From Clavaria fumosa (taxonomy: Eukaryota; Basidiomycota; Agaricomycetes; Agaricales; Clavariaceae): a stretch of DNA of 64,000 bases. The stretch is taken from assembly GCA_951802425.1 (NCBI GenBank), contig OX637795.1:3452501-3516500 (forward strand), read 5' to 3'. Positions 34,536-60,934 of this stretch are shown piece after piece; the first letter of the stretch is position 1; the number at the start of each line of letters is the position of its first letter. The notes under the pieces were generated by a model that saw only the letters and a program-made list of their open reading frames with translations, did no database searches and was not told the origin of the DNA. The translations under genes and the position numbers were made by a program.

Positions 34536-35375
34536 TCAAAACGCCCCGTAGTCCGCGAGGAAGCCGAGGCCGGCGAGGGAGACGGCCAGCAGGAGCAGCG
34601 GCGGAACGTCCCTGGAGGCGCCGCTCGTGGAGTCCGGCGCCGCCGCCGCCGCAGTCGCCGAACCGCTGTCGTCGGTGGACGTGGTCAGCACGCGCACGGG
34701 AGGTGCGGCCGAGGTCGGCGAAGGCACGGGCGGGATCACAGGCGGAGTGGGCGACACGGGTGCCGGTGCAGGTGCGGGCGCGGGCGCAGGTGCAGGTGCG
34801 GGTGCGGGTGCGGGTACGGGTGGAGGTGCGGGTGCGGGTATAGGCGGAGGGTTGCCTAGGGAGAGTCCTGTCAGTGTTTGGCCAGCCGTAGACTAGCAGC
34901 CTTTTAGCTCACCAGTCGAGTGGCATAGATTGTCGTCGCCGCAAATTTCGGTCGAAAAGCAGCAGCCTCGAAACCCTGTCCGGAAGAACAAAGGAAAAAT
35001 ATTTAGTGTGACCTGCGTGAGAACGACAATCTGAGGGGTATGCCCTCACCACATGGGATGTCCGCCTCCGTGCATCGAATATCACATTTATAGTTTGGGA
35101 GACAGGCTTTACCAGTTGGACAGCAGGTCCTGCCGTTTGAACACGGGGAGTATCCAGGACTGTGTGGACGAATATTAACAGAGATGCGTTGATGGAATAT
35201 ATATTAAATTAAGAAAGACGACGCACTCGCAAGCAGAAGTGGTCTGACGCTTGCCGTGGGACAAGAGAGAAAACCGCCCAGCATAATACGGAGTCATAGC
35301 AGTATCGCGTATTCGAGCGTTTAAAAGGGGGGATAAGCCAAGGAGGAAGGCAAAGAAAAAAGCGACTGCAACCAT
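34536..35375 (-). CDS. KCG-1: secreted Kex2-site, Cys-rich, GPI-anchored protein
   Basis: Exons 35375-35227, about 35168-35053, a third near 34983-34920, and 34855-34536. Signal peptide MVAVAFFFAFLLGLSPLLNA, then SHGKRQ (Lys-Arg cleavage site). The 12-Cys module follows: SPCSNGRTCCPTGKACLPNY and RGCCFSTEICGDDNLCHST. A Pro/Ala stalk, about 17 PA/AP pairs, comes next, then a Thr/Ser-rich stretch. The hydrophobic tail DVPPLLLLAVSLAGLGFLAD ends the protein as a GPI signal would. A cell-wall or plasma-membrane surface protein is inferred; no family name is known to me. The CCPxGxxC pattern resembles granulin-like folds, but this is only a resemblance. Confidence 0.8.
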
Positions 35376-35418
35376 CTTGGTGGTGATTGGAGGGTGAGAG
35401 CTACGATGATGGTGAGAA

Positions 35419-37201
35419 GGGTCGGGCCAACCGCTCCTTCAGCAGCATCACATTCCCGACACTGACATCGCGATGCATCCATCCTCGCTCATCGTAGTTC
35501 AGGTAACCTTCGGGAGCACACACATAAGTGATCAGAGCGGAGCGGAGAGCGTCAGGGCATACATAGGCCACAGACCTATTATGCCGTGCAATATGCCCTC
35601 AAGCAGTTCGTGAGGGGACGAAGCGTCAAGAAGATCTCGCCCCTCGGTTCTGAACAAATGGCGAGTCTGAATGCGCTCTTCCGGCTGAACATCCCCCAAG
35701 TCTTCATGACAGAAGAGGTTCCAGGGTTCCGAGTCAGCGGGCATGAAGTTCTTCGTGAGGGGGACTTTCCCATCGGGCCCTCTGACAGTATAGGAGCCAA
35801 GAACCTCCGGGACCCCAAAGAGCCCTTGCGCATCCCGATACATCGCCGCCTCGGTATTCCGGACGAGCAAGGGCCACGAGTCCTTGACGACGAACGACGA
35901 GGGGGACGTCTTCGAGGCGGAGACTGGGGATGTCGTCGTGGCAGGTAAGGATCTGGTTTTCGGGCCGCGGCTCAATTGGTTCTGCGCAGATGACCCTCGT
36001 GCGCATCGACCCCCCCATGGCCGGTTTTGATCCGCTCGACCTCGCTATGTTCGACCCGCTGCTCCTCGTCGGGCCGCTGCTCCCGCTCGCCGGTCTCGGC
36101 ATGCCGTCGCTGCCTAACTGAGAACTACATCCGCAACCCGATGATACCACAGGCGGTTGCCGTGAACGCGTGACGGCCGCGCAAGTGGGGCAGGCTAACC
36201 CCCTCCCTGCGCGGTCATTCCGACGCTCAGGCTCGGGAGGGGATACACCAAGTCCCGACGAAGGCGAAGACAAGCGCGCCGGCGTCTGCGTCGTTCGTAT
36301 CTGCGCCTGCGAGCCGGGCTGGTCTCTCTTTCACGCGAAGGACCTGCGTGGCGCGCCCACGGACACAGACCCCGGCCGAAGATGCGCTCGTCCACGCGGC
36401 GGCAGAGGCAGGCCGACACCGGGCAAGTTAAGGCGAGAGCCGTCGCAAGAGCCGTCGAGCCCGGCTGAGTCCGCGGCTGCTGGGCACGGCGGCGAGGCCG
36501 ACCATCGCGGCGACGATGTGGGTGCGGCTGTCCGGCCGTGTCAGGTCGGCTGGGCTGGGCTGGCGGTCATGCCCCCGCGGTGGAAGAACAGGAAGCGGAC
36601 TTCCTTGGAGGAGTGGCTGAATGCGATGACGGGGACGTATTATCGGCCGGGCAAGGAAGCGAACATGCAGCGGGCGTATGTCCCGGCTTGCAGCACCATG
36701 TCCGGCCAGGTATCGTTGATTTCGACGGGTATGTGGATGTCTCGCCAGGAAACACTGTTGTCGCCAGCAATTTCTTCGTCGCAGCCGACACCATCCGGTG
36801 TGAGTGCACAAGAACCTTCGATGCCGTCTGCCACGGGCCGGCCGTACGTAGAAAAAGCGCAAAGATCCATAGTAGGAGCCCGCATGTGGTGTCAGCCCTT
36901 CTCGCGCGATTGCGAGAGTTAGCGTTGAGTTAGATAAGTAAAAGGGGACCCGTAATAGTGCTTCTCAAGGCTCGGCGTGCTGTTGCTCAAAGTAGTGCGA
37001 ATAGGGGGACGACTCCATTTCCTTTGCGAGCCGTTGCGGACCCGCTCGACGAACCTCGCTATCATGCGGGAGCAAATCGGATACGATATCATGGCTCTGC
37101 CACGTCGCGCAGATGAGCTCCCCCTTCATCGCGTCTTCGAGGTCACCTTGTGTCATAGGCGGCGGCGTGCTGGCACTTCCCGTGTTTGTTAGCTGTTGCA
37201 T
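35419..37201 (-). pseudogene. FunK1-type kinase, copy 2 (C-terminal half missing)
   Basis: It is a near copy of 32340-34113. An ATG at 37201 opens MQQLTNTGSASTPPPMTQGD and the N-terminal reading frame that is broken in copy 1 is intact here. The same exons follow (GDNSVSWRDI, GLFGVPEVLGSYTV), but the sequence ends just after the catalytic-loop exon HRDVSVGNVMLLKERL and switches to KCG-1 promoter DNA. The DFG-like region and C-lobe are absent, so no active kinase can be made. The truncation is the duplication breakpoint itself. Confidence 0.75.
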
Positions 37202-37645
37202 TTCAACGGCGTCGAGTGCGGCTTTTGAGCCATGATTCGTAATATAAGAAAAACGACACAGAGAACTTGGGAGAAATGGGTTCGATGGTTGGAAGACGGA
37301 CTTACACTGTTCAGCTCTCGTTCCACATGTCACGTGATAAGGCACCGAGATAGGGGTGCTAATTAAGTTCACCGACGCTCATTACCAGCTGCTATGACAC
37401 CCACAAGTAGAGAGTTTTTTTTTGGCTCATTACTACATTGGAGGGCATAGGCGACCTACAAGCTAAAGGCGGCGAAATCGTTTTTTTTTTTCGTATTCAA
37501 CATTGACACCACAAGTCATTCAGCAAAAAAAAAAAAAGTCCGACGTCACTCATATGCCGATAAGCATGTCATAAACCGGAACGAACGAAAGAAAAAAACA
37601 AAACACATTAAACCAAACCCTTCTCTTCCAGGACAACGCAGCACA

Positions 37646-38483
37646 TCAAAACGCCCCGTAGTCCGCGAGGAAGCCGAGGCCGGCGAGGGTGACGGCCAGC
37701 AGGAGCAGCGGCGGAACGTCCCTGGAGGCGCCGCTCGTGGAGTCCGGCGCCGCCGCCGCCGCAGTCGCCGAACCGCTGTCGTCGGTGGACGTGGTCAGCA
37801 CGCGCACGGGAGGTGCGGCCGAGGTCGTCGTAAGCACGGGCGGGACCACGGGCGGAGTGGGCGACACGGGTTCCGGTGCCGGTGCCGGTGCGGGCGCGGG
37901 CGCAGGTGCAGGTGCGGGTGCGGGTACGGGTGGAGGTGCGGGTGCGGGTATAGGCGGAGGGTTGCCTAGGGAGAGTCCTGTCAGTATTTGGCCAGCCGTA
38001 GACTAGCAGCCTTTAGCTCACCGGTCGAGTGGCATAGAAGGTCGTTGCCGCAAATTTCGGTCGAAAAGCAGCAGCCTCGAAACCCTGTCCGGAAGAACAA
38101 AGGAAAAATATTTAGTGTGACCTGCATGAGAACGACAATCTGAGGGTATGCCCTCACCACATTTGATGTCCGCGGGCGTGCATTCAATATTACATTTATT
38201 GTTTGCGAGACATTCTGTACCAGTTGGACAGCAGGTCCTGCCGTTTGAACACGGGGAGTATCCAGGACTGTGTGGACGAATATTAACAGAGATGCGTTGA
38301 TGGAATATATATTAAATTAAGAAAGACGACGCACTCGCAAGCAGAAGTGGTCTGACGCTTGCCGTGGGACAAGAGAGAAAACCGCCCAGCATAATACGGA
38401 GTCATAGCAGTATCGCGTATACGGGCGTTTAAAAGGGGGGATAAGCCAAGGAGGAAGGCAAAGAAGAAAGCGACTGCAACCAT
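37646..38483 (-). CDS. KCG-2: secreted Kex2-site, Cys-rich, GPI-anchored protein
   Basis: This is the tandem duplicate of KCG-1 with the same exon layout, signal peptide, SHGKRQ site, Cys module, Pro/Ala stalk and hydrophobic tail. Exon 2 differs: after the shared CCPTG it reads TECLANNKCNIECTPADIKC where KCG-1 has KACLPNYKCDIRCTEADIPC. Eight codons change and none of the differences is silent, while flanking introns are nearly identical. All cysteines are kept. The stalk is slightly shorter. Probably functional. Confidence 0.8.
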
Positions 38484-38523
38484 CTTGGTGTTGATTCGAG
38501 GGTAAGAGCTACGATGATGGTGA

Positions 38524-39934
38524 GAAGGGTGTTAGCCATTGAAGAAGTTGTTTTATTTTATATTGCACACAAGATGGGTGTGTGAAGGTCTAAGGTGACA
38601 CCGAGTACATACAGACACATACAGACTACAGACACATACAGACACGAGCAGTGCAGCACTGCCTTGGCTGACCTTGCCAAGCTATAAAATTACTACTTTT
38701 AGAAATCATCATAAGTTCCTTTTGGCTTGGCATATATAAAGCGTGTAATTCCGTTTGTTTTTTAAATAAGAGGGAGAGAGTCGTGTATGTATTGCTGTGC
38801 ATTGCAAAGGGTGAGCGAAGAGGGGGGGAGGGGAGGGTTCATGATTATGCGGCATTGCAGTGCAGAGTAGTACAAAGTTTTTTTTTGGTTTTTAATCGCA
38901 CGGTTCCGATATCGAGTTTACTCGAACGAATATTACCGTGTCTCTGTGTGGAAAGACTCGTAGCAAGTAACAACGTAGTAGACTATGTACATACATCATC
39001 TTCCTGCTCGGGGCTCATCAAGTGCTACTCTGTTCGCAAGCACTTGAATAAACGACCAACCCTCTGCCCCCACGTGTGAAAACATGAGCATGCTAAGCCA
39101 ACTTCGCACATAGCGGCAGTTGCACAGCATGAACGTTGAACGTTGAACGTCTGCGTAAGGACAGGAAGAACAGCATTTACAGTCTGAAAAGGATTTTCCG
39201 GGGGGAAGGTGTGTGCACAGCATTGAGCGTGGTCTCTCCCTGAATCTAGATCTCGGATAAAATAGACTAAGCCCTATCGAGAGGTCGACCTCAGCACCCC
39301 TTTATAAAGGTGAGGGCTCGGTGAACAAAACCATGCATGTACCGCTCGAGTACCCGTGCGGACGAAGCCAAAGTGCCATTTCAATAAGAAAAAATCTCCT
39401 TGTACTACATTCCATCACGCCATAAAACGTAGATCGGTAGCCGTCGAGTTAGCTCTCAATAACGCAAAAATTTAAGCAGCCCTGAGTCGCTGACAGTGAC
39501 AGCAATGACAATAAGCCGGTGCCGGCCCCTATTGCTAATAGAAATGCCAAAAAGGTACAGATGTGGTCCCAGGAACATACAGTAGAGCGGCCAGGGCCAG
39601 TGTGGAAAATAGGGGAACCCCACCTTCGTCAAGTTCTGTGAACCTCAAATTATGGCGCGCTGCAAGGGATGAATTCTGTGCTAATAATTACTTTGAGGAA
39701 ACGATGACATGCATGCATGAATTTTTCGATTAGTGGTGGTGGTGGCAAATGTACGAGCATTGGGGAAAAACACCGCGGGTATCATGGACAAACAAAAGAG
39801 AGAAAAAAGTCTTCCTCCGATATTTCAAAGGCGTCGTTCACGTACCAATCAAACAGCATTGTCATAAACAGGGGGTCGCCAACCCCGCTCTCGCGAACTC
39901 ATTGCGTAAGTCAAAAAAAAAAAAACACACCCCG
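38524..39934. other. Gap between KCG-2 and KCG-3
   Basis: Contains short ACATACAGAC repeats (38606-38645) and a T-run at 38878. No open frame with coding character. It may include the KCG-2 promoter near its left edge. Confidence 0.4.
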
Positions 39935-40833
39935 CTAGCCCGCGAAGACGCCGAGGTGAGCGACGACAACGGCGAGCAGTACCAGCGACGGCACGCGCGC
40001 ACAGCCCATCGGGGCGCCGCTCGCGGGCGAGGAGGTGCCGCTCGCCGACGAGGCGGGAGTCGCCGATGCGGTGGCCCCAGGGGTCGTCACGAACGCGGTG
40101 CCCAGGGACGGGATGGCGGGAATGGGTGTGAAGGAGGGGAACGGGGGTGTCACCGCAGGCGCTGTGGGTGCGGGCGGTGCGGGCGCGGGCGCGGGTGGGG
40201 GTGCGGGCGGTGCGGGCGGTGCGGGCGCGGGTACGGGTGCGGGTACGGGTGCAGGCGGGGGTGCAGGCGCAGGTGCGGGCTGAGGAGCAGCGCCTGGGGA
40301 GAAGCGCCTGTCAGCGAGAGAGACGTGCAGGACCGACAGCCCCTTCACGTATTACCTGGGTGGCACAGGCCGTCAGCGCCGCAATTCTCGGTTGCATAGC
40401 AGCAGCCCCTTCCTGGGTTAGGAAAAGAAACAAGGAAAGGGGGGGGGGGGGATGATGATTGCTTTTTAGCGTGACCCCTGCATGAGAAACGACAGTTCTG
40501 GCCCCTCACCACATGGGATGTCTGTGGATGTGCATGGGATGTCGCATTGTTGACGTGGGAGACAGGTTGAGCCGGTTGGACAGCAGGATATGCCGTCTGA
40601 GCAGGGAGAGTACGTGGGGCTGCGAGGGAGCCCAACATCAACAGAGGTGCAAAGGATGTAAGGAAAATGTGAAGAACGACGCACTCTTCACAAACGGCGG
40701 CCTGACGCTTGTAGAGGGACAAGCCGAGGAGCGAGCCCTGCCCCAGATGGAGCGAGGAGAAGCCACCGGCTGCGCACACGCCCAAAATGGGCGACGCGAG
40801 GAGGACGGCCAGGAGCGGGGCGGCGGCAACCAT
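39935..40833 (-). CDS. KCG-3: secreted Kex2-site, Cys-rich, GPI-anchored protein
   Basis: ATG at 40833. Signal peptide MVAAAPLLAVLLASPILG is followed by GGFSSLHLGQGSL and SLYKRQ. The Cys module reads SPCSDGISCCPTGSTCL ... CDIPCTSTDIPC, then GCCYATENCGADGLCHPG. The stalk is PAPAPAPPPAPVPAPVPAP-like, followed by a Thr/Ser region and the tail GCARVPSLVLLAVVVAHLGV. The last splice donor is GTAATA after CCAG, different from the GTAAGT of most members but in frame. The peptide before KRQ resembles the repeated unit of KCG-9. The stop at 39935 falls a few residues earlier than in the other members. Confidence 0.78.
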
Positions 40834-42089
40834 CCTTTGCTCAGATATTCGAAAAGATGAGGAGGAGGAGGGGGTGAATGTTGTGTGTACGGGCCCCTTG
40901 CACTTATAGTTGGGTGGCCCATGTCTCGGGGGGCTATTCAGGGCTGCATTCTGCGGAACGCGCCGGTACCACGCGTTGCTAGGGAGTTGCTAATACTATT
41001 CTGGATGACCACATCCTAGGATACGCGCACACGGGGTCGTCCGTTTCTCAGGGCTCGGGCGCTCATCAATGATCATATGCACGAGGAATTGACTACAAAG
41101 GCGATAGGTTGAGTTGTATTTTCACAGGTGTCAATACAAACTTTCCACTTTGATGGAGCGAACACGGTTGTTACTATGACCCAGGAAGTGTACGAGACCT
41201 TGAACAACGGTGTGTATGCATGGAATATCACAATGCATGCCAGACAACGAGATCAGAGCATGGAAAATAGCCGCTGTGGGGATTACCCGGGTCTGGCGCT
41301 TCCCCAAGAAAAGCAGCGTCATAAAAAGAAGAGAAAAGACAAGGCGGTTGCGTCGCTGTTTACAGTAACTCGTCCCCCAACTTGGGCGGTGATTTCCAGG
41401 AGGGGGGCGCCAGTGAAGGTGACTCTTTGTCCAGTACGGTCCTTCACGGCCGTACGTTGCAGGATGTGTTCCCCGTGTTGCCCGTGTTACGGAATTACGT
41501 TAAGTCGTGGGAACACACGCACTCACGGTTCTGCTCGGAGGAAAAGAGTCCGATCCGACAAACTGTAAAGACGGCTGACTAATAACTCGCAATGGTGACG
41601 ACTAGCAAGGGAGAGGAAGAGGAACGACCGGCCTTTAGACGTGCTTGGTGTCGTGACGCTTAGCTGTAGCGGAGACTCCACCACACATGAACACAGGGGT
41701 GTATTTGCCCGACCTTGCGCGCGGTAGGCTTTAGAAATTTGAAGACAATTAAGTGACTGGAGGACAATCAAGTGGTGACCCCGTCCAATGCAGAACCTTT
41801 GCCCAGTGCTGACTTCTAACCAAACTAGGAAATGGGCGCGTTGTCATCATACCATACCAGACGTAGGAAAATCTTCTTTGTAAATCAGCTTTCGAGACGA
41901 GGCAGCACAGCTCAGTATCCAACATTATTGCTACAACAAACGGAACAGAAATCTCTTCATTGATAAAACCAAATCAACAGCCAGCCATACACCGAGACTC
42001 ATACAGAATCTTTCATCATCACATCTCAACTAGTTCGGCAAACCCCCCTTCGACAACGCAAAAAATTCAGAATGGCGCGTAATCTGTGG
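40834..42089. other. Gap with a probable decayed KCG remnant
   Basis: The promoter-like GGTACCACGCGTTGC block lies at 40971-40985. At 41130-41330 (minus) the frame LLFLGKRQ and a nearby stretch resembling TGCAACATTCCATGCA suggest a ruined KCG copy with deletions. No intact gene. Confidence 0.35.
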
Positions 42090-42960
42090 AGAAGCTGACG
42101 CTGACGACGTTAACGGCGAGCAGCCAGCCCCGGTGGCAGCCGGACCCAGCGAGGGAGCGGTAAAGTGAAGCCCGCGCCGCTTGCAGAGACGCCCAAAGGT
42201 GTGGATGTGGCTGTAGGTCCCAGAAACACGGTTGCCACAGAATTTATCGTTGTCTGCGGAGTAGCCGGTGGGACGGTGGGAGACTCGGGTGTAGGTGCAG
42301 GGGGAAGTTCAGGGGTGGGGGCTCGGGTGTGGGGGCCGGGGGAGGGTTATGCGGAGACGCAGGTTGAGGGAGAGGGTTATGCGGAGACATTGGCTGAGGG
42401 AGAGGGTTATGCGGAGACATTGGCTGAGGACGAGGGGTATATGGGGACGAGGGTTATATGGAGACGCAGGTGGAATGGGGCTGGGGATATGTATATCAGC
42501 GTTTCTCGAGTGACTTGTAACATGGAAAAAGGAGTCTCTGCCGCAGGCGGTATTCCCACCACGGCAACCATTGACTCCCCGTAAGGGAGAGTAAATGCAT
42601 GGACGTATCACCAGCATGGGGGCGGGACCATGGGAGTACACAAACGTATGGCATCTCAACGGGCGCACATGGGACATCGCATTTGCGAGGCATCGTACGC
42701 CGGTTGGACAGCAGAGGGATCTGGGGTGATCCGGACCATAGAGAAAAGCCGCTATGAGGATGGGAATGCATTCATGGAAGCGTCAGGAATACATGGATTG
42801 GGAAAAGTGAAACAAAAGAAAAAAAGTATGAAGTGGGGACATGCGTTGACGACGACCTGGCGCTTGACAAGAAGGAGAGAGTCGTAGGAGTAGAGCCCCA
42901 GAAGATGGGGCCGGGGGTCCGAGAAGGCAACGGTTGCCTAACATAGAAGCGATGTCGCGC
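42090..42960 (-). pseudogene. KCG-4: decayed family member
   Basis: The pieces are recognisable in order: LLLVKRQVVVNAC near 42870-42835, SLCCPTGVRCLANA near 42720-42670, and a Pro-rich stalk made of a 30-base repeat (PHNPLPQPMS, three copies, 42347-42436). They sit in different frames, and the signal peptide and the second Cys pair are not found. Frameshifts and deletions make a functional product unlikely. The stalk repeat is unlike that of any other member. Confidence 0.6.
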
Positions 42961-43788
42961 CTTGTGCGGGATCTTCAGGGGATCCTATAGGCGTAGCGCT
43001 AGTACCGCGTGCGATGGCGAGCATCTGCTACTCCAGCTGGTGCAAGCGTCTGAGATGGCGGGTTAACGAACTTGGATGATCAGTTCTCCACGTTGTCGGT
43101 GAGCTAGGGAGGGGAGGGGCCTTGCCGTTTCGTCCTGGTGACGCGCTGCTCTTGGCCCCTCTCGCTCATTGCAAGTGATCGGACGCGGCGGTGCCATTGC
43201 GACGTGATTTCTTAATAAAATGTCGACGTTGTCGCTGGCCGCAAGGTGCTCGTGCAGACGGAGATGTTCGGTCAGAAGAGATGGGGCGATGGTATGAGAT
43301 CTGTCGGCGGGAGCGTCGTTGGCGTTAATAATAACCCACGGGTGAACGCAGGAAGGGATGGGACGTACGCCACGCTCAAAGATCTGCGTCGCCGCCGCCT
43401 CCCAGCTTGCTGGGATTCCCAAAAAGGGAACAGCTCCCGGGAACCTTGCGAATTCTCGTCCGCGGTACGGGTAATTGCAATCTAGACGAGCAGAGTCAAA
43501 AGTGGCCCTCGAAGCGTAGCGGGCCTTGCACAGAGACAGAGACTTTAGATCGGGCCGTTGATCGAGCGCTACAGCGGAGAGGGTTGTAAAACATGTTGGC
43601 CTAGGGGAATAATGGAATACATGAATGAACTCGCAAAGTACAAACATAGAGAATTTGAAAGACAGAGCGACATTGACATCATGACAAACAAGGAAAAGTC
43701 TCCTACATTTCAAGACGTCGTACACATGCCAATCCATAAACCGGAGCAGCAGTTTTCGCCAACCCTGCCCTCGCGGCAAAATATTAAA
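42961..43788. other. Gap between KCG-4 and KCG-5
   Basis: Short frames on both strands; the minus-strand one at 43063-43779 (238 codons) has no signal of a protein family and overlaps conserved spacer sequence. I see no gene. Confidence 0.35.
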
Positions 43789-44765
43789 TCAAAACACACC
43801 ATAATCCGCGAAAAAGCCGAGGTGAGCGATGACAACGGCGAGTAGTAGTAGTGACGGGACGCGCATGCAGCCCATCGGGGCGCCGCTCGAGGAGGCTGCA
43901 GTGGCCCCAGGGGTGGTATTCAGGGCATTTGTTGTCGTCGATGATGAGGACGAAGACGTGAACACGGACGTGAACAGAGTCGGAACGGTAGTGATGGAAG
44001 GACGTGGGGGCACATTTGGGGGCGGGGTTATGGACGCAGGCGGAAGAAAGGGAAGAGACGAAGGAAGAGGAGGAGAGGATAGAGGAGGGAGAGGATGAGG
44101 ACGAGGAATAGGAGGCTCAGGAAGAGGAGGAGGAGGCTCAGGAAGAGGAGGAAGAGGCTCAGGAAGAGGAGGAAGAGGCTCAGGAAGAGGAGGAAGAAGC
44201 TCAGGAAGAGGAGGAGGCAGAGGAGGAGGTTGAGGAGAACGGGGTAGTAGTGGTGGTGGGCCTGGGAGAAGCACCTGTCAGCGAAGCGTGCAGACAGACA
44301 GCCCTTCACTTACTGCCCGGATGGCATAGGGTGTCGCTGCCACAAAATTGGCTTGCCATGCAGCAGCCCGGTCCTGGTGGGAAGAACGAAGAATATTTAG
44401 CGTAATCTGCATAAAAAAGACAGTCTGGAAATTTGTCCTCACCACACAGGATGTTCGTGGTGCATAGAGCATCACATAGTCTATTTGGGAGACAGGCAAA
44501 ACCGGTTGGACAGCAAGTTATGTCATTCGGGCACGGAGAGTATCTGGGGCTGCGAAGCACGAATATTAACAGAGGTGCAAAGAATAAATGGAATGTGAAA
44601 GACGATGTACTCTTCACAAACGATGGTCTGACGCTTGTCGAGGGAAGAGTCGTGGAGAGAGAGCTGTCTAAGATAAAGCATGGAGAAGCCACTGGCTGCG
44701 TATGCGTTCGCGTTTAAAATAGGTGATGCGAAGAGAATGGCAAAGAACATAGAGGCGGCGACCAT
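43789..44765 (-). CDS. KCG-5: secreted Kex2-site, Cys-rich, GPI-anchored protein
   Basis: ATG at 44765; last exon 44261-43789. Signal peptide MVAASMFFAILFASPILNAN, then SLDKRQTIVCEE and the Cys module SPCPNDITCCPTGFACLPNR plus GCCMASQFCGSDTLCHPG. The stalk is a tandem PLPEPLP repeat (18-base DNA unit, about 44120-44210), then Ser/Thr residues and the tail GCMRVPSLLLLAVVIAHLGF. Signal-peptide, stalk and tail frames all join through exon boundaries that match KCG-6. Likely functional. Confidence 0.82.
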
Positions 44766-46190: not shown

Positions 46191-47416
46191 TCAAAACACC
46201 CCGTAATTCGCAAAAAAGCCAAGGTGAGCGATGACAACGGCGAATAGTAGCAGTGACGGCACGCGCATGCAGCCCATCTGGGCGCCGCTCGCCGACGAGG
46301 AGGCTGCAGTGGCCCCAGGGTTGGCTGTGGTCTGCACAGATGCGGTACTCGGGGTAGTTGTTGTCGTCGATGATGATGACAAGGACGTGGACGTGGAGAA
46401 AGTCGAAACGGTAGTAACGGAAGGAAGTGGGGGCACATATGCAGGCGAGGTTACGGGCACAGGCGATGGCGACAGTGGCAGCGGGGGAGGAGGCGGAGAA
46501 AGAGGCGGAGGCGAAGGAGAAGGGGGAGGGGGAGGTGGAGGGGTAGGAGGAGGTGGTGGTGGGGGTGGTAGTGGTGGAGAAGGAGGGGGAGGAGGAGGAG
46601 GAGAAGGAGAAGGAGGAGGAGGAGGAGGAGGAGGAGGAGGAGGAGGAGGGGGTGGTGGTGGTGATGGAGGAGGAGGAGGAGGAGGAGGAGGAGGAGGAGG
46701 AGGAGGAGGAGGAGGAGGAGGAGGAGGAGGAGGAGGAGGAGGGGGGGGAGGAGGAGGAGGAGGAGGAGGGGGTGGTGGAGAAGGAGGAGGAGGAGGAGGG
46801 GGAGGAGGAGGAGGAGGAGGAGGAGGAGGAGGAGGAGGAGGAGGAGGGGGAGGAGGAGGAGGAGGGGGGGGAGGAGGAGGAGGAGGAGGGGGTGGTGGTG
46901 GTGGTGGTGGTGGACCTGGGAGAAGCGCCCGTCAGCGAGGCGTGCAGACCAATAGCCCTTCACTTACTGCCCGGATGGCATAGGGTGTCGCTGCCACAAA
47001 ATTGGTTTGCCATGCAGCAGCCCGGTCCTGGTAGGAAGAACGAAGAATATTTAGCGTAATCTGCATAAAAAAGACAGTCTGGAAATTTGCCCTCACCACA
47101 CAGGATGTTCGTGGTGCATAGAACATTACATAGCCTATTTGGGAGACAGGCAGAACCGGTTGGACAGCAAGTTATGTCATTGGGGCACGGAGAGTATCTG
47201 GGGCTGCGAAGCACGAATATTAACAGAGGTGCAAAGAATATATGGAATGTGAAAGACGATGTACTCTTCACAAACGATGGTCTGACGCTTGGCGAGGGAA
47301 GAGTTGTGGAGAGAGAGCTGTCTAAGATGAAGCGTGGAGAAGCCACTGGCCGCGTATGCGTTCGAGTTTAAAATGAGTGATGTGAGGAGAATGGCAAAGA
47401 ACAAGGCGGCAACCAT
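46191..47416 (-). CDS. KCG-6: secreted Cys-rich protein with very long polyproline stalk
   Basis: Exons 47416-47265, 47197-47097, 47027-46968 and 46915-46191 join in frame to 345 residues. Signal peptide MVAALFFAILLTSLILN, SLAKRQTIVCEE, Cys module SPCPNDITCCPTGSACLPNR and GCCMANQFCGSDTLCHPG. The stalk begins after Ser and runs roughly 140 residues, almost all Pro, encoded by a GGA/GGT repeat tract on the plus strand. A Ser/Thr-rich stretch (STSTSLSSSSTTTTTPS) and the tail GCMRVPSLLLFAVVIAHLGF end the protein. The tract must be read as CCN in the minus frame; the competing Gly or Leu frames are shadows. Length of the tract is likely unstable. Surface-exposed rod is the natural inference. Confidence 0.82.
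46500..46914. repeat. GGA/GGT microsatellite (polyproline stalk of KCG-6)
   Basis: Over 400 bases consist of GGA, GGT, GGG and GGC triplets in plus orientation. On the coding (minus) strand they encode nearly pure proline. Triplet phase is preserved throughout. Confidence 0.9.
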
Positions 47417-49172
47417 CTTGCTAGGATTCGAAGTGAGGGGTGCGACGGTGAGAGCTGCGTGAACAGGCTCTGTACTTATCTTGAGAGTATCCCCCAATTC
47501 GAAGGTGGATTTCAGGGCCATACTTTGCAGTACCACACATGCGGGGGATTACTGTTTTGGGTGTCCAGATCCTGAGACGCGCACCCACGGTTAAGGGTTT
47601 GGTGCTCATCAGTTAGGGAAGATCATATTTCGACCACACGGTATGCTGTGAAAAGCGGGAAATATGAGCCGGACTGGAAAATTTCACTCATCGAATGAAA
47701 ACGGATGATCAATTCCGCAGACACGGCCCACGTTGTTTGCAGGGAAGGAGTGGGGGAGGCCTTTCCCCTTTCATCCGGGTGCAAAAGATCGAGCGCTGCG
47801 CTCCCCAAAACAGCACGGCTTCGACTGGCACAGGCACGAGAGGTTGATGGGCTTTCCTGGTGGCACAGTTGAACCACAGTGAGCATAGCCCGGTGAAGCG
47901 TGGAGTGATACTCGGAGCCAGATCACTGAACTGACGGCGTCCGTCGAGAGTATTTCGGTGGAATATTGTTGGTCGGTGGCGTGCTTTGGTTCGTGGGTAG
48001 GGGCGAAGAGTGCTTAGCGCAAGGGAATAGATTTCTGAAAGAAAAGAAAAAAGAATCCTCCTGTTTGGTGAGGCCTTTGGATGGAACAATGCCTTGCACA
48101 ACGACTAATACTCTGGATTGGGGCGCTGATCGAGAGAGCGATGGCATGAGACTTGTGGGCGAGAACGTCGCTAGCGTTAACAATAAACCCCTGGTGAGCG
48201 CGGGGAATAATGACGGGAACGGCATGTATGCCAGGTGAAATATGCTCAACTATTTGCGTCGCCTTCCTCTCCGGCGGCCAAAGATCGAGCCCAACGACAT
48301 CCTGGCGATGCGGATACAGGCACACCAAAAATATCGAGCGCTGGGCTCCCCAGGGCCCAGAGCAGCGCGGCTTCGACTGGCACAGGCACGCGAGCGCCGC
48401 GAGATCGGCGAGCTTTGTTCCTGGCGCGGCCGCGGGTTCTTGTCCGCGGCACGGTTAATCGCGATCTAGGCGCAGTTAAAGTGGCCTCGAACCATGGTGG
48501 GGCAGAGCAGTGTCTTGTGGATCAGGTCGTTGATTGAGTGGCGCCTATGCGGAGGGGGTTGCAGGACGCGTTGGCTTGAAGAGACTGTAGGAAATGGGAT
48601 GAGGGCGACTGGAACTCGGCAGTGTCGGCACAAACAGGTCCCCTGTCTTCAATTAAACCTCTTTTCCACATCGCTGGTGAAATGGCTGCCTTTGCTCATC
48701 AATGAGGGCCGGAAAGCCCTCACCATCGCTGGCGAATATGTCCACCCTCGGTGACCTCAAGGATCGAGTTCCCAAGGCGGACCAGTGCAACCGCAAGTTC
48801 TTGGCGCAAGCTGCGGGATTCTAATCGCGATCTAGATGAGCAGAGTCAAAGTGCTATTACGCGTAGAGGGTTGTAGGCTGAACTGGGAAGGAGTGAATAA
48901 GATGATGGTGGAAGGAAGGTCGAACGATTTCTACTGAATGTGAACCTCAAATTATTGCGCACTGCAAGGGATGAATTCTGTGCCAACTACAATGGAATAC
49001 ATGAATGAACTCGCAACGTACAAACTTGGAAGACATAGCGACATCGATATCATGACAAAAAAGAAAAAGTCTCCTCCTACGTTTCAAGACGTCGTACAAG
49101 TGCCAATCAAAAGCATATCATAAACTGGGAGCGGCAGAAATATATGTTTTGCTCTCGCGACAACATGCGAAA
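47417..49172. repeat. KCG spacer, copy 1
   Basis: The part from about 47690 to 49172 is repeated at about 51080-52625 and 54590-56208. Shared landmarks are GATCACTGAACTGACG, GGAATATTGTTGGTCGGTGG, GAGCGCTGGGCTCCCCAGAG and ATCGCGATCTAG. No conserved gene is supported; frames differ between copies. Confidence 0.75.
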
Positions 49173-50110
49173 TCAAAACACCCCGTAGCCCGCGAAGAAG
49201 CCGAGATGAGCGATGACAATGGCGAGTAGCAGTAGTGACGGCAAGCGCATGCAGCCGATCGGAGCGCCGCTCGCCACCGAGGGGGGTGCAGTGGCCCCAG
49301 GGGTGGCTGTGGTCTGCACGAACGCGGTAGCCAGGACACTCGTCGTCGTCGATGACGAAGACGAGGACGGCGGGGGAGGAGGTGGAGGAGGCGGAGGCGA
49401 AGGAAGAGGAGGAGGAGGAGGCGGAGGTGAAGGAGGAGGAGGAGGAGGAGGAGGAGGCGGAGGCGAAGGAGGAGGAGGAGGAGGTGGTGGTGGTGGTGGT
49501 GGGGGAGGGGGAGGGGGAGGTGGAGGAGGTGGAGGAGGAGGAGGAGGAGGGGATGCTAGAGGAGGTGGAGGAGGAGGAGGAGGAGCGGAGGGTGGTGGTG
49601 GTGGTGGACCCGGGAGAAGCGCCTGTCAGCGAGGCGTGCAGACAGAAAGCCCTTCACTTACTGCCCGGACGGCATAGGTCGTCGCTGCCACAAAATTGGT
49701 CTGCCATGCAGCAGCCCTTTCCTGGTAGGAAGGACGAGGAATATTTAGCGTATTCTGCATAGAAAAGACAATTTGGAAGTATGCCCTCACCACATTTGAT
49801 GTTCGAGGGGCAGGGATAATTGCATAGTTTATCTGGGAGACAGGCAAAACCGGTTGGGCAGCAACCTATATTATCCGGGCATGGAGAATATCCGGGGCTG
49901 CGAGGCACGAATATTAACAAAGGTGCAAAGAATATATGGAATGTGAAAGACGATGTACACTCCACAAACGATGGTCTGACGCTTGTCGAAGGAAGAGTCG
50001 TGGAGAGAGAGCCGCCTAAGATGAAGCGTGGAGAAGCCACTGGCCGCGTATGCGTTCGAGTTTAAAATGAGTGATGTGAGGAGAATGACAATGAACAGGG
50101 CGGCAACCAT
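49173..50110 (-). CDS. KCG-7: family member with lost splice acceptor
   Basis: ATG at 50110. Signal peptide MVAALFIVILLTSLILN, SFDKRQTIVCG, Cys module SPCPDNIGCCPTGFACLPDK plus GCCMADQFCGSDDLCRPG. The stalk and tail (GAPIGCMRLPSLLLLAIVIA) are in frame with each other, but the acceptor before the stalk, CCCAG|GT in KCG-6, is CCCGG|GT here (49610-49611). Retaining the intron gives a stop three codons later (GSK stop) and a soluble protein without stalk or anchor; the nearest cryptic AG would shift the frame. It may therefore produce a secreted, unanchored form or be inactive. Confidence 0.7.
49370..49608. repeat. GGA/GGT microsatellite (stalk of KCG-7)
   Basis: About 240 bases of GGN triplets, interrupted by GCG and GAA, encode a Pro-rich stretch on the minus strand, shorter than in KCG-6. 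Confidence 0.85.
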
Positions 50111-52625
50111 CTTGCTAGGATTCGAAGTGAGGGGTGCGACGGTGAGAGCTGCGCGAACAGATCCTGCACTTATCCCCAATTCGAAGGTGGATTTTAGGGC
50201 CATACTTTGCGGTACCACACACATGCGGGGAAATTACTGTTTTGGGTGTCCAGATCCTGAGACGCACACCCACGGTTAAGGGTTTGGCGCCCATCAGTGA
50301 TGATCTACACGAGGGAAGATCATATGTCGAACACACGGTATGCTGTAAAAAGCGGAAATATGAGCCGGACTAGAAAATTTCACTCGTCGAATGAAAAGCG
50401 CCAGATGGAATGACCCTCAATCCTGACCAACTCGATTGAGTAATCTCATGATGCTTGCAAGGCTTTAATGCCAGGACTCAAATGTGTGAGGCCATCTTCC
50501 TTCCAGTGAGGGGGAACCTGTGCAAGTGAGGCACTTAAAGTGACATACGTTGAACATTTAAGGTGTGCCAATCCACATACCTATGACATACCACACACAC
50601 CTAGACTCATGCAGAATTTTATAACGTGAGATTAAAACAGCCTGTAGTCTGCAAAAGCTGACACTGAAGATGACAGTACCGAAGGCAGGCGATCGCAGCC
50701 CGACCAAGCGAGGCTTGGGAGGAGACAACATTGAGATACCTGTCGGTGTTTTTCGTCTGAGAGTGACAACTCCTAACGTGGCAAACGCACCATCCCGCGG
50801 GTCCTCGCAACGGCGCATATCATTTCCAGGAGGGGTGGCACCAGTGACGTAATTCGTTACTGTAAACGTAACTGAGGGAATGGGTGACAATCCTGAGTTG
50901 ATAACGCTCGCAGACGTCTACGGATTATCACCCAATTTCGTGCGATTCCTCGGCGCCCGCTTGGAGGAAGGAATCCGAAATACAACTGACAAAGATTCGC
51001 TTCTATGAGCGTAGCGCCGGTACAGCATGTCACAGGCGGCATGTGGCCACTCCACCCAGAGCTTCTTGAAGATAGCGGATTACCGAACCCGGATGATCAA
51101 TTCCACGGACACGCCCCACGTTGTTTCCAGGGAAGGAGCGGGAGAGGCCTTTCCCCTTTCATCCTGGCGATGCGCTACTCTACCGCCTCTGTTGCCGAGA
51201 GGTGCAGGCACACCAAAAGATCGAGCGCTGGGCTCCCCAGAGCAGCACGGCTCTGACTGGCACAGCACGAGAGCACTGTGAGGTCGTTGGGCTTTGCTGT
51301 TGGCACAGTTGAACCACAGTGAGCATAGCCCGGTGAAGCGTGGAGTGATACTCGGAGCCAGATCACTGAACTGACGCCGTCTGTCGAGAGTATTTCTGTG
51401 GAATATTGTTGGTCGGTGGCGTGCTTTGGTTCGTGGGTAGGGGCGAAGAGTGCTTAGCGCAAGGGAATAGGTTTCTGAAAGAAAAGAAAAAAGAATCCTC
51501 CTGTTTGATGAGGCCTTGGGATGGAACAATGCCTTGCACAAAGACTAATACTCTGGAGTGGAGCGCTGATCGAGAGAGTGATGGCATGAGACTTGTGGGC
51601 GAGAACGTCGCTAGCGTTAACAACAAACCCATGGTGAGCGCGGGGAATAATGACGGGAACGGCGTGCAATAAGCTCAACTATTTTGCGTCGCCCGCCTTC
51701 CTCGCCGGCAGGCCAAAGATCGAGCGCCAGACTCCCAAAGCGGAACGGCTCCGACTGGCACAGGCACGCGAGCGCCGCGACATCCTGGCGATGCGGATAC
51801 AGGCACACCAAAATACCGAGCGCTGGGTTCCCCAGAGCAGCACGGCCTCGACTGGCACAGGCACGCGAGCGCCGCGAGATCGGAGAGCTTTGTTCTTGGC
51901 ACGATTAATCGCGATCTAGGCGCAGTTAAAGTGGCCTCGAACCATGGTGGGGCAGAGCAGTGTCTTGTAAAGAGACCGATATGCTAGGATCAGGTCGTTG
52001 ATTGAGTGGCGCCTATGCGGAGAGGGTTGTAGGACGCGTTGACTTGAAGAAACTGTAGGAAATGGGATGAGGGCGACTGGAACTCGGTATAAACTGGTCC
52101 CCTGTCTTCAATTAAACCTCTTTTCCATATCGCTGGTGAACTGGCTGCCTTTGCTCATCAATGAGGGAAAGCCCTCACCATCGCTGGCGAATATGTCCAC
52201 CCTCGGTGACCTCAAGGATCAAGCTCCCAAGGCGGACCAGTGCAACCACAAGTTCTTGGCGCAAGCTGCGGGGTTCTAATTGCGATCTACATGAGCAGAG
52301 TCAAAGTGCTATTACGCGTAGAGGGTTGTAGGCTGAACTGGGAAGGAGTGAATAAGATGATGGTGGAAGGAAGGTCGAACGATTTCTACTGAATGTGAAC
52401 TGCACACTGCAAGGGATGAATATTGATGAATTCTGTGCTACAATGGAATACATGAATGAACTCGCAAAACGTACAAACTTGGAAGACATAGCGACATTGA
52501 TATCATGACAAACAAGAAAAAGTCACCTCCTACATTTCAAGACGTCGTACAAATGCCAATAAAAAGCATATCATAAACTGGGAGCGGCAGAAATATATGT
52601 TTTGCTCTCGTGACAACATGCGAAA
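50111..52625. repeat. KCG spacer, copy 2
   Basis: Its right-hand part (about 51080-52625) matches the spacers before KCG-6 and KCG-8. A block at about 50640-51010 is repeated at about 53985-54560. The minus frame there (VTNYVTGATPPGNDMRRCED) is the same in both, so an old gene fragment of unknown type may be included. Confidence 0.7.
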
Positions 52626-53422
52626 TCAAAACACCCCGTAATCCACAAGGAGGCCGAGGTGGGCGATTACAACGGCGAGTAGTAGTAGTGACGGCAAGCG
52701 CATGCAGCCAATCGGGGCGCCGCTCGCCGCCGAGGAAGGTGGAGTGGCTCCAGAATTGGCTGTGGTCTGCACAATAGCCAGGACACTCGTCGTCGTCGAC
52801 GACGAAGACGAGGATGCGGTTGGGAACAGAGGCGAAAGGGTGACAGTTGTAAGAGAACTTGAAGGAGGCGGGGGCAGATATACAGTTGATATCACAGGTG
52901 TAGGTGGCGAAAGAGGAGGAGGGGGAGGGCCTGGGGAACGCGCCTGTCAGGGAGGTTTGTAGACCGACAGCCCTTCACTTACTGTCATAGCATAAGTTGT
53001 CGCTGCCGCAAAATTGAGTTGGCATGCAGCAGCCCACTCCTGGTAGGAACGCTTAGTGTTGACCTGCATGAGAACGACAATCTGGAAGTATGCCCTCACT
53101 ACATCGGATGTCTGCGGTCGTGCATAGAACATTACATCGTCTATTTGGGAGACAGGCAAAACCGGTTGGGCAGCAACCTATATCATCCGGGCATGGAGAA
53201 TATCCGGAGCTGCGAGGCACGAATATTAACAGAGGCGCAAAGAATATATAGAATGTGAAAGACGATGTACTCTTGACAAACGATGGTCTGACGCTTGTCG
53301 AGGGAAGAGTTGTGGAGAGAGAGTTGTCTAAGATGAAGCGTGGAGAAGCCACTGGCCGCGTATGCGTTCGCGTTTAAAATGGGTGATGCGAGAAGAATGG
53401 CAAAGAACAGGGCGGCAACCAT
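52626..53422 (-). CDS. KCG-8: secreted Cys-rich, GPI-anchored protein with short stalk
   Basis: ATG at 53422; last exon 52930-52626. Signal peptide MVAALFFAILLASPILNAN, SLDKRQTIVCQE, module SPCPDDIGCCPTGFACLPNR plus GCCMPTQFCGSDNLC. The stalk is short (PPPPPLSPPTP), then Val/Thr/Ser residues and tail GCMRLPSLLLLAVVIAHLGL. The intron before the second Cys exon has a small deletion compared with its neighbours, but the frame of the exons holds. Confidence 0.8.
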
Positions 53423-56208
53423 CTTGCTAGGATTCGAAGTGAGGGCTGCGACGGTGAGAGCTGCTTGAACAGGCCCTGTACTTATCTTGAGAGTATCCCC
53501 CCACTTGAGGGTAGCTTTCACGGCCATACTTTGCAGTACCACACACGCGGGGGATTACTGTTTTGGGTGTCCAGATCCTGAGACGCGCACCCACGGTTAA
53601 GGGTTTGGCGCTCATCAGTGAGGGAAGATCATGTTTCGACCACACGGTATGCTGTAAAAAGCGGGAAATATGAGCCGGACTTGAAATTTTCACTCGTCGA
53701 ATGAAAACCTTCCGACCAGATAGAATGACCCTCAATCCTGACCAACTAGATTGAGTAATCTCATGATGCTTGCAAGGCTTTAAGACTATCATACCAGGAT
53801 TCAGATGGGTGAGGCCATCTTCCTTCCAGTGAGGGGGAACCTGTGCAAGTGACATACGTTGAACATTTAAGGTGTGCCAATTGGACGCCATCCACATGCC
53901 CATAACATGCCACACACACCTAGACTCATACAGAAATTTATGACGTGAAATTAGAACAGCCTGTAGTCTGCAAAAGCCGACACTGAAGATGACAGTACCG
54001 AAGGCAGGTGATCGCAGCCCGACCAAGCGCCGCTCAACAAGGACGGCACAGTGATGCGGAATGTCTGGGATTTTTGACATAGGCTCAGATGCATGTGAAG
54101 GAGGCCTCGGGTTCACGTACAGGGGTCGCTTGGGCAGAACCTCAGTGACACAGGTGGAGGCAGGGGCCCGCACAAGTGCACACGCACAAGTAGACGACAG
54201 GTAGATAGAAACACGGGAGGCTTGGGAGGAGATAACATTGAGATACCTGTCGGTGTTTTTCGTCTGAGAGTGACATCTCATAACGTGGCAAACGCACCAT
54301 CCCGCGGGTCCTCGCAACGGCGCATATCATTTCCAGGAGGGGTGGCACCAGTGACGTAATTCGTTACTGTAAACGTAACTGACGGAACAGGCGGCAATCC
54401 TGTGTTGATAACGCTCGCAGACGTCTACGGATTGTCACCCAATTTCGTGCGATTCCTCGGCGCCCACTTGGAGGAGGGAATAATCCGAAATACAACTGAT
54501 AAAGACTCGCTTCTGTGAGCGTAGCGCCGGTACCGCATGTCACAGGCGGCATGTGGCCACTCCACCCAGAGCTTCTGAAAGATAGCGGATTACCAAACCC
54601 GGATGATTAACTCCACGGACACGCCCCACGTTGTTTCCAGGGAAGGAGCGGGAGAGGCCTTTCTCCTTTCATCCTGGCGATGCGCTACTCTACCTCCTCT
54701 GTTGCCGAGAGGTGCAGGCACACCAAAAGATCGAGCGCTGGGCTCCCCAGAGCAGCACGGCTCTGACTGGCACAACACGAGAGCACTGTGAGGTCGATGT
54801 GCTTTGCTGTTGGCACAGTTGGACCACAGTGAGCATAGCCCGGTGAAGTGTGGAGTGATACTCGGAGCCAGATCACTGAACTGACGCCGTCTGTCGAGAG
54901 TATTTCGGTGGAATATTGTTGGTCGGTGGCGTGCTTTGGTTCGTGGGTAGGCGAAGAGTGCTTGGTACAAGGGAACAGATTTCTGAAAAGAAAAAAAAAT
55001 CCTCCTGTTTGGTGAGGCCTTGGGATGAAACAATGCCTTGCACAAAGACTAATACTCTAGAGTGGAGCGCTGATCGAGAGAGCGATGGCATGAGATTTGT
55101 GAGCGAGAACGTCGCTAGCGTCAACAATAAACCCATGGTGAGCGCGGGGAATAATGATGGGAGCGGCATGTACGCCAGGTGCAATAAGCTCAACTATTTG
55201 CTCGCCGGCGGCCAAAGAGGACTCCCAAAGCGGAATGGCTCCGATTGACACAGGCACGCGAGCGCCACGAGATCGGCGAGCCGTGCTCTTGGCGCGGCCG
55301 CGGGTTCTTGTCCGCGGCACGGTTAATCGCGATCTAGGCGCTTTAAAGTGGCCTCGAAGCATGGTGGGGCAGAGCAGTGTCTTGTCAAGAGACTGATATG
55401 CTAGAGGCCATGGTTAATCGCGATCTAGATGAGCACATTCCAAGTGGCCCGCGAAGCATGGTGAGACGGAGCAGTGTCTTGTGCAGAGACTGAGACGCTA
55501 GGATCAGGTCGTTGATTGAGGAGTGCCTATGTGGAGAGGGTTGTAGGACTCGTTGGCTTGAAGAAACTGTAGGAAATGGGATGAGGGTGACCGGAGCTCA
55601 GTATAAATTGGTCCCCTGTCAATTGGACCTCTTACATCGCTGGTGAAATAGCTGCCTTTGCTCATCAATGAAGGTCGGAAAGCTCTCACCATTGCTGGTG
55701 AATATGTCCACCCTCGGTGACCTCTAGTAAGCCAGATTTCGTCTCCCACAGAGTCAAGGGATCAATCTAGTGTTCGCCAAGCAGGCACACCAAAGATCAA
55801 GCTCCAAAGCAACTGCAAGTTCTCGCGGAGTTCTAATCGCGATGTAGATGAGCGGAGTCAAAGTACTGTAATTGTACAGAGCCAGCCTTCAGACTATGTC
55901 AAAGTATGGAGTAGTGACAGTACAAACTGTATTGTAACATCAGAAAGCTCGAATTTCCGGCGAAAAATACCGTCATACCGCACGATTTCTACTGACTGTG
56001 AACCTCGAATTATTGCACACTGCAAGGGATGAATTCTGAGCTAACTATAATGAAATACATGAATGAACTCGCAACATACAAACTTGGAAGACAGAGCGAC
56101 ATCGATAACATGATAAACAAGAGAAAGTCTTCTCCTACATTTCGAGATATCGTACAAAGTGCCAATCCATAACCCGCGCCAACTCAGCCCTCGCGACAAA
56201 ATGCGAAA
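53423..56208. repeat. KCG spacer, copy 3
   Basis: Repeats the blocks of copies 1 and 2, including the conserved promoter block near 53552 and the gene-fragment block at 53985-54560. Short direct repeats of ATCGCGATCTAG occur at 55327, 55418 and 55836. No independent gene. Confidence 0.7.
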
Positions 56209-58022
56209 TCAAAACACCCCATAATTCGCAAAAAAGCCAAGGTGAGCGATGACAACGGCGAGTAGTAGTAGTGACGGCACGCGCACGCAGCCCATAATGC
56301 CCATCGAAGTGCCGCTCGCTGGCGAAGAGGTTGCAGTGGCCCCAGGGTTAGCTGTGGTCTGCACAAATGCGGTATTCAGGGGAGTTGTTGATGAGGACGT
56401 GGACGATGGCGGGGGAGAAGCTGAAGGAGGTGGTGGAGCAGGCGGAGCAGGCGGAGGAGAAGCGCCTGAAAAAAGCGCCTGTCAGCGAGGCGTGCAGACG
56501 GACAGCCCTTCACTTACTGCCCGGGTGGCATAGGCCGTCGCTACCGCAAGATTCGGTTGCAAAGCAGCAGCCCGATCCTGATAGAAAAAGAACAAGGGAT
56601 GCTTAGCGTGACCTGCATGAGAACGACAGTCCGGAAAGCACGCCCTCACCACATGGGATGTCATTGGCCGTGCATGGAATGTTGCATTGTCTATTTGGGA
56701 GACAGGTTGAACCAGTTGGACAACAAAATGCGCCGTTTGGGCAGGGGGAGTATGTGGGGCTGCGAGGAGCCCAATATCAACAGAGGTGCAAAGGATGGAT
56801 GGAATGTGAAGATGACGTACTCTTGACAACCGGAGGATGGAGGTGCGGGTGCAGGAGGAGGCGGAGGAGGCGGAGGAGGCGGAGGAGGCGGAGGAGGCGG
56901 AGGAGGAGGAGGGGGGGGAGGAGGGCCTGAAAAAAGCGCCTGTCAGAGAGGTGTGCAGACCGACAGCCCTTCACTTACTGCCCGGGTGGCATAGGCCGTC
57001 GCTGCCGCAAGTTTCGGTTGCAAAGCAGCAGCCCGATCCTGATAGGAAAGAACAAGGGATGCTTAGCGTGACCTGCTTAGAACGACAGTCCGGAAAGCAC
57101 GCCCTCACCACATTTGATGTCATTGGCCGTGCATGGAATGTTGCATTTTCTATTTGGGAGACAGGTTGAACCAGTTGGACAGCAGAATGCGCCGTTTGGG
57201 CAGGGAGAGTATTTGGGGCTGCGAGGAGCCCAATATCAACAGAGGTGCAAAGGATGGATGGAATGTGAAGATGACGTACTCTTCACAACCGGAGGGTGGG
57301 GGTGCGGGTGCAGGAGGAGGAGGAGGAGAATTGCCTGGGAGAAGCGCCTGTCAGCGAGGCGTGCAGACCGACAGCCCTTCACTTACTGCCCGGGTGGCAT
57401 AGGCCGTCGCTGCCGCAAGTTTCGGTTGGAAAGCAGCAGCCCGATCCTGATAGGAAAGAGCAAGGGATGCTTAGCGTGACCTGCTTAGAACGACAGTCCG
57501 GAAAGCACGCCCTCACCACATGGGATGTCAGTGGCCGTGCATGGAATGTTGCATTTTCTATTTGGGAGACAGGTTGAACCAGTTGGACAGCAAAATGCGC
57601 CGTTTGGGCAGGGAGAGTATGTGGGGCTGCGAGGAGCCCAATATCAACAGAGGCGCAAAGGATAGATGGAATGTGAGAATGACGCACTCTTCACAACTGG
57701 AGGTCTGACGCTTGTTGAGGGAAGAGCCGAAGAGAGAGCCTTGTCCTAAATGGAGCGAGGAGGCCTGACGCTTGTTGAAGGAAGAGCCGAAGAGAGATCC
57801 CTGTCCTAAATGGAGCGAGGAGGCCTGACGCTTGTTGAGGGAAGAGCCGAAGAGAGAGCCCTGTCCTAAATGGAGCGAGGAGGCCTGGCGCTTGTTGAGG
57901 GAAGAGCCGAAGAGAGAGCCCTGTCCTAAATGGAGCGAGGAGAAGCCACTGGCTGCGTATACGTTCGCGTTCAGAATGGGTGATGCGAGGAGAATGGCAA
58001 AGAACAGAAAGGCGGCAACCAT
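56209..58022 (-). CDS. KCG-9: Kex2-repeat precursor with three Cys modules
   Basis: ATG at 58022; stop at 56209. Signal peptide MVAAFLFFAILLASPILNAN, then four 20-residue units ending NKR, then SSCEE. Three Cys modules follow in frame, each split by the usual introns: about 57650-57400, 57240-56990 and 56775-56520. Each has CCPTGSTCLPNR plus a GCC...TETCGSDGLC-type second half and is followed by a short Pro/Ala linker (PPPPPAPAPPPSGCEE) that leads into the next module. The acceptor in front of modules uses CTCGCAG and adds Pro-Lys before YSPC. After the third module comes a short stalk and the tail GCVRVPSLLLLAVVIAHLGF. Mature products should be Kex2-released peptides and a surface protein with three cysteine domains (inference). 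Confidence 0.78.
56460..57700. repeat. Intragenic triplication of the KCG-9 Cys-module block
   Basis: Three direct repeats of about 420 bases share CTGTCAGCGAGGCGTGCAGA, CCCTCACCACAT and AGGAGCCCAATATCAACAG. Differences are few. Each unit spans the two Cys exons, both introns and a linker, so duplication adds a domain without breaking the frame. Confidence 0.88.
57704..57944 (-). repeat. 60-bp coding tandem repeat: Kex2-bounded peptide units
   Basis: Four units at exactly 60 bases encode QASSLHLGQGSLFGSSLNKR (one unit has Phe for Leu; the first lacks the QA start). Each ends in Lys-Arg. Between units only five or so bases differ. Confidence 0.92.
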
Positions 58023-60915: not shown

Positions 60916-60934
60916 TTTTATAACTCTATAGATT

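Follow-up and report, generated by a model that had tools for sequence, protein, structure and literature searches.

The window analysed here, 64,000 nucleotides of the Clavaria fumosa genome (C2:3452501-3516500 of 48.8 Mb in 17 contigs), carries a run of related genes coding for Cys-rich proteins with proline-rich stalks. This raises the question of what family these genes form, which of their parts vary, and what the encoded proteins may do at the surface of the fungus.

Gene models, built via the splice sites common to the copies, give nine members between positions 34536 and 58022, all on the minus strand: G4 has decayed, and the other eight (G1-G3 and G5-G9) are intact. Thus, the nine-gene array of the original prediction keeps its coordinates and its single orientation, one of the nine members being a relic. 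From its N terminus onward, the protein predicted from each intact gene comprises a hydrophobic leader, a pro-segment with KRQ at its end, one or more 12-Cys modules, a stalk rich in Pro and a GPI-like tail. The shared plan of four exons proposed earlier is recovered, by comparison between copies, in seven of the eight intact genes, G9 having ten. In this plan, exon 1 carries the leader, the pro-segment through KRQ and the first Cys of the module; exon 2 carries SPC-CCPTG and five more Cys; exon 3 carries GCC-x5-C-x5-C; exon 4 carries the stalk and the tail. Splicing is predicted from this comparison: in the window genes, intron 2 measures 60, 69, 70, 72, 73, 74 or 97 nt and, despite these unequal lengths, its removal would give back one frame in every one of them. 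Since the stalk lies in one frame with the conserved tail in each intact model, the reading of the CCT repeats as proline is anchored.

According to the models, the module follows C-x6/7-C-x5-CC-x5-C-x5-C-x3-C-x5/6-C-x3/4-CC-x5-C-x5-C. The pattern first described was right overall, with two amendments: its x5/7 should read x5/6, and a first Cys, contributed by exon 1, is added. The 12 Cys are invariant in 12 of the 13 intact genes of the genome (see below), H1 lacking the first. In G5, G6 and G7 (minus strand, window 44314-44548, 46968-47202 and 49662-49896), intron 2 is 69 nt long and stop-free in frame; its retention would place 23 extra residues, one of them a Cys, between the module halves. 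The stalks are indeed unlike in kind, as had been noted (Table 1), with the correction that the PHNPLPQPMS stalk belongs to pseudogene G4. This copy keeps the CCPTG core; its other Cys codons, frame, leader and tail are gone, and no tail was recovered for it in a genome-wide tail search. Two intact copies show irregularities: the tail of G3 stops five residues short of the usual DYGVF end, and the usual intron-3 acceptor of G7 is destroyed (AG to GG), an in-frame alternative being available 54 nt further on. H5, a close paralogue of G7, retains the usual acceptor. A lone KRQ-like stretch without module, at about 41301 on the minus strand between G3 and G4, is perhaps a further relic. Upstream of the genes, a TATAA box is aligned in 8 of 14 (G3, G9 and H1-H6); G6-G8 have a weaker ATAA, and G5, G1 and G2 have no TATAA box there.

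Table 1. Features of the gene family and of its tandem units. Positions refer to the window unless preceded by the contig.
Feature	Position	Strand	Description
Tandem units, 3.1 kb (two)	32341-35422, 35420-38530	-	93.7% alike; carry G1, G2 and kinase-like fragments
Fungal protein kinase (PF17667) fragments	31974-36044	-	duplicated along with G1 and G2
G1	34536..35375	-	intact, 213 aa, PA-repeat stalk (gene model)
G1 exons (4)	35375-35227, 35159-35050, 34975-34913, 34855-34536	-	
G2	37646..38483	-	intact, 4 exons, 213 aa; tandem duplicate of G1
G3	39935..40833	-	intact, 4 exons, 224 aa, PA/PP stalk
G4	42030..42990 (approximate limits)	-	decayed copy, PHNPLPQPMS repeat
G5	43789..44765	-	intact, 4 exons, 264 aa, PLPEP stalk
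G6	46191..47416	-	intact, 4 exons, 347 aa, nearly pure Pro stalk
G7	49173..50110	-	4 exons, 233 aa by in-frame alternative intron-3 acceptor
G8	52626..53422	-	intact, 4 exons, 207 aa, short P/S/T stalk
G9	56209..58022	-	intact, 10 exons, 420 aa, three 12-Cys modules
60-bp tandem repeat	57699..57942	-	4.1 copies, 96% matches; ASSLHLGQGSLFGSSLNKRQ repeats, G9 exon 1
H2	C2:3230610	+	639 aa; five repeats, five modules; outside window
H3	C2:3589099	-	two repeats, two modules; outside window
13 intact genes	between C2:3222074 and 3610536		eight in window, five (H1-H5) outside

The array belongs to a family that extends beyond the window. When one 39-residue module exon is used as query, at least 21 places are found in the genome (E 4e-21 to 5e-7), ten in the window and eleven outside, which places the array beyond chance. 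The tail as query gives at least 14 genome matches, one per gene, and no tail without an accompanying module was found in this search. The genome thus holds at least 14 family genes, 13 of them within about 390 kb of C2 (H1-H5 lying outside the window) and a broken copy, H6, on C11. H6 is probably dead: its site reads RRQ, the usual intron-3 acceptor is missing and the frame is broken in the stalk. Linkage to the mating type was considered and rejected: STE3 genes lie on C5 and C9, homeobox genes on C6 and C3, and none on C2. By these genes, the genome is of basidiomycete type.

In all 13 intact genes, KR followed by Gln stands ahead of the Cys-rich head, in agreement with the leader region ending in KRQ that was originally described. 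Hydropathy gives 13 proteins with hydrophobic N and C ends and a hydrophilic middle; in each, the 14-residue maximum of the C-terminal tail reaches 2.54-2.85, vs 0.73-1.56 in the middle. The hydrophobic tail follows small residues, as in GPI-anchored proteins. It is probably a GPI signal, a transmembrane end being compatible with the hydropathy as well. A Gln exposed by Kex2 has precedents: KEP peptides of Agaricomycetes are described as often pyroglutamate-bearing and copsin as Kex2-cleaved (PMC9769878), and the account of copsin reports an N-terminal Gln made pyroglutamate and six disulfides (PMC4381204). Like copsin and other Kex2-matured fungal Cys-rich peptides, the family has a predicted Kex2 site, a likely pyroglutamate start and a presumably disulfide-rich head; it differs from them in Cys spacing, stalk and tail, and no sequence match was found.

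The absence of a recognised name for the family, part of the original prediction, stands after searches of 5.8 billion proteins, Pfam and the PDB, in which no well-characterised family matched convincingly. Residues 40-108 of G3 gave no candidate with three shared words among the 5.8 billion proteins, and residues 1-168 of G9 gave 7990 scored candidates, none at E up to 10. The proteins covered were about 123-392 and 231-735 aa long, respectively, shared exact words were required for a match, and the protein set may lack the nearest species; a control query with the neighbouring NACHT protein returned 33 matches, including five named basidiomycetes, so that the set does contain basidiomycetes. 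In Pfam (five sequences and nine modules, E up to 10, HMMER filters removing most matches above about 0.1), Granulin (PF00396) was the only family, below cut-off, and hydrophobin, CFEM, WSC, chitin-binding (CBM18), LysM and defensin profiles gave no match. The Granulin matches concern five of the nine modules (best E 0.0057), and the best score shown, 15.2 bits, lies under the gathering cut-off of 20.9; across the genome this profile gives four weak matches, none above cut-off. A PDB profile search returns granulin-5 (2jyt) at E 0.3. The likeness resides in the CC-x5-C-x5-C spacing; unlike Granulin, the modules have no separating dibasic sites, and their score stays below the curated cut-off. 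The order of single and paired Cys in granulin also differs from that of the 12-Cys module. We read this as a lineage-restricted family with granulin-like spacing, not granulin, for which Granulin would be the best weak lead. As regards the stacked-hairpin fold of granulin, AlphaFold2, applied to a read-through stretch, gave a mean pLDDT of 44.1 and a pTM of 0.27. Rfam has no match in the window, a plasmid DNA search had none either, which says little for a fungus, and in the literature no paper was recognised as describing a 12-Cys stalked family.

Multi-module genes with tandem Kex2-site repeats, namely G9 in the window and H2 and H3 outside, had been missed. In G9, the leader is followed by four Kex2-site repeats, then by three 12-Cys modules joined through Pro linkers, and finally by a stalk and a tail. 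Its cassette of exon 2, exon 3 and a linker exon is present three times with matching outer phases, so that duplication leaves the frame intact. The linkers of G9, H2 and H3 contain no dibasic site; the heads would therefore remain on one chain. H1, H4 and H5 (C2, outside the window) have one repeat and one module each. Over the family, the ratio of pro-segment to module copies is 1:1 in ten intact genes, 2:2 in H3, 5:5 in H2 and 4:3 in G9, with repeats and modules in separate exons. More than one repeat and more than one module coincide in the same 3 of 13 intact genes (one in 286 by hand arithmetic), which is no independent test since G9, H2 and H3 are related.

These repeats recall the KEPs, for which the published rule, as worded in PMC7329392, asks for a leader and for three or more tandem repeats lying between Kex2 sites, each at least 8 aa and none above 100 aa long. 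G9, with three 18-residue segments and four KR sites, and H2, with four segments between five KR sites, conform to its repeat part, their leader being predicted by hydropathy; H3, with one segment between two sites, and the ten single-repeat intact genes do not. Like known KEPs, including the C. cinerea hybrid of a peptide with GH128, the genes combine a predicted leader with tandem repeats set between KR sites, a Gln that would follow the cut and a presumably folded domain behind the peptides. Unlike them, a tandem of Cys modules, Pro linkers and a GPI-like tail follow, and most members have a single pro-segment. Family members may stand in Umemura's KEP table under a type number.

The conservation of signal, module and tail that had been proposed holds for the leader and the tail; the module of single-module genes, however, carries a diversifying signal between its cysteines. 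Site models were run with our own script, using FastTree branch lengths and one free scale, and neither they nor the simulations take account of recombination. M2a is favored over M1a for the 20 unique modules, module 2 of H3 being left out as identical to module 3 of G9 (LRT 23.7, p 7e-6), for the ten single-module genes without the broken H6 (LRT 25.5, p 3e-6), and for the single-module genes without H6, G1 and G2 (LRT 21.4, p 2e-5). The signal is stable on three trees, built from exons, introns or both, and none of 120 simulations under the M1a null reaches the observed value (largest 10.8 vs 22.0). Nine module sites have a posterior above 0.8, none of them a Cys. Thus, variation in single-module genes affects both stalk and head. 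The nine module copies of multi-module genes give no diversifying signal (LRT 0.38, p 0.83; M0 omega 0.28), their lesser divergence also making the test weaker. In its fixed cysteines and radical exon changes after duplication, the family resembles the snake venom ASSET toxin families, as described in PMC2711939 and PMC2474615; this is an analogy of evolution, with neither homology nor toxin activity claimed.

Recent duplicates give a closer view. Between the modules of G1 and G2, 15 nonsynonymous and 2 synonymous changes are counted, vs 0 and 3 in exon 1. Their module exons differ at 17/173 positions vs 88/2415 in introns and flanks (Fisher p 4e-4), the kinase-fragment window of the same unit being as diverged as the module (14/110). 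Upstream of G1, the shared sequence extends for only about 50 nt, after which the kinase-like fragment belonging to the next unit is reached. The G5/G6 pair has no excess of module change, and a general acceleration of exons over introns was rejected, as 210 module pairs comprise 96 faster, 113 slower and one equal. Introns 1 and 2 of G7 and H5 are identical, yet exon 1 differs at 23/152, an instance of the exchange of segments between paralogues. Elsewhere in the window, two plus-strand genes are typical of fungal NLR-like genes, one for a NACHT and WD40 protein (14101-16593) and one for a long WD40-repeat protein whose 129-bp repeats are near-identical (19929-23897). Two 151-bp units, 98% alike, occupy 59093-59394, and a Copia-type gag-pol reading frame on the plus strand (60932-64000) continues past the window end. 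Genome-wide, at least three laccase-type exon matches and at least one weak match to a class II peroxidase extension were seen; we take their small number to hint at a brown-rot-like basidiomycete.

The sequence itself shows how the genes are built and how many copies there are, the selection signal, the decay of copies and their tandem duplication; splicing, GPI anchoring, Kex2 cleavage, disulfides, binding and a partner are inferred. We propose, with a probability of about 0.5, a lineage-restricted birth-and-death family of secreted, probably GPI-linked, disulfide-rich heads on Pro-rich stalks, in which single heads diversify against a variable outside partner. The leader would take the protein into the secretory path, and Kex2 would cut after KR, leaving a head that starts with Gln, likely as pyroglutamate. 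The tail would then be exchanged for a GPI anchor, to the wall or the plasma membrane, and the stalk, of differing length, would raise the head through the wall. Single-module heads may bind something variable outside the cell, be it a competitor, a grazer, a parasite or other hyphae, and this would keep the residues between their fixed cysteines changing. The nearly uniform multi-module heads would probably bind a constant repeated ligand, for instance a wall polysaccharide, with higher avidity. For single heads, the selection signal and the tail favor recognition or defence at the surface; for multi-heads, the lack of such a signal and the copy number favor avidity for a constant ligand. The surface-molecule design suggested originally fits the sequence, with leader and tail by hydropathy and with variable stalks, save that the head of single-module genes varies too.

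Other explanations can be weighed against these data. The proteins might be structural, their Cys heads cross-linking wall components, with variation due mostly to relaxed constraint, slippage and copy exchange rather than recognition. Slippage does alter the stalk repeats, one copy is a pseudogene and another is broken, multi-module heads are uniform, and the all-pairs comparison has no general excess over introns. However, relaxed constraint cannot yield a preference for M2a over M1a, since M1a already includes a neutral class, and the fixed cysteines also argue against this explanation, which appears unlikely. Alternatively, Kex2 would free a disulfide-rich pyroglutamate peptide acting on competitors, as an antimicrobial or anti-grazer agent of the copsin kind, secreted or wall-tethered, with stalk and tail holding it at the hypha. 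KR|Q ahead of the Cys-rich core, the maturation reported for copsin (PMC4381204, PMC9769878) and the diversifying signal in the heads all agree with this. With stalk and tail behind them, however, the heads would not be free, their Cys spacing is unlike that of copsin, and neither defensins nor any other antimicrobial family in Pfam gave a match; this alternative seems quite improbable.

Two further proposals start from the Kex2-site repeats. Those of G9, H2 and H3 could release signalling peptides of the QASSLHLGQGSLFGSSLN type, the heads being secondary. Such precursors would accord with the repeat part of the published KEP rule, which G9 and H2 follow, with the frequent pyroglutamate of Agaricomycete KEP peptides and with the KEP peptide that precedes a GH128 domain (PMC9769878, PMC7329392). 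Against this, ten intact genes have a single pro-segment and H3 two, and the conserved part of the family is the head with the tail, so that this role can be given very little credence. Alternatively, each released peptide could serve one head as a stoichiometric partner for folding or capping, so that a displayed, multi-headed surface protein would mature by a code of one peptide per head; this would come in addition to the contrast of fast-changing single heads with frozen multi-heads. Against it stand the kinship of the three multi-copy genes and the ratio in G9, which is off by one; the code seems very improbable, and peptide-head specificity is unlikely since G1 and G2 have identical pro-segment protein sequences and different heads.

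The preferred reading, of displayed heads diversifying against an outside partner, would, if right, give a basidiomycete an unnamed surface family that unites Kex2 repeats with tandem Cys modules and a GPI-like tail; each of the three elements is known, but the present searches returned no protein combining them. Its natural series of 1, 2, 4 and 5 pro-segments lets one ask what fungal pro-segments do, and its diversifying single heads vs frozen multi-heads lead to a direct test of what the heads bind and of whether the partner varies.
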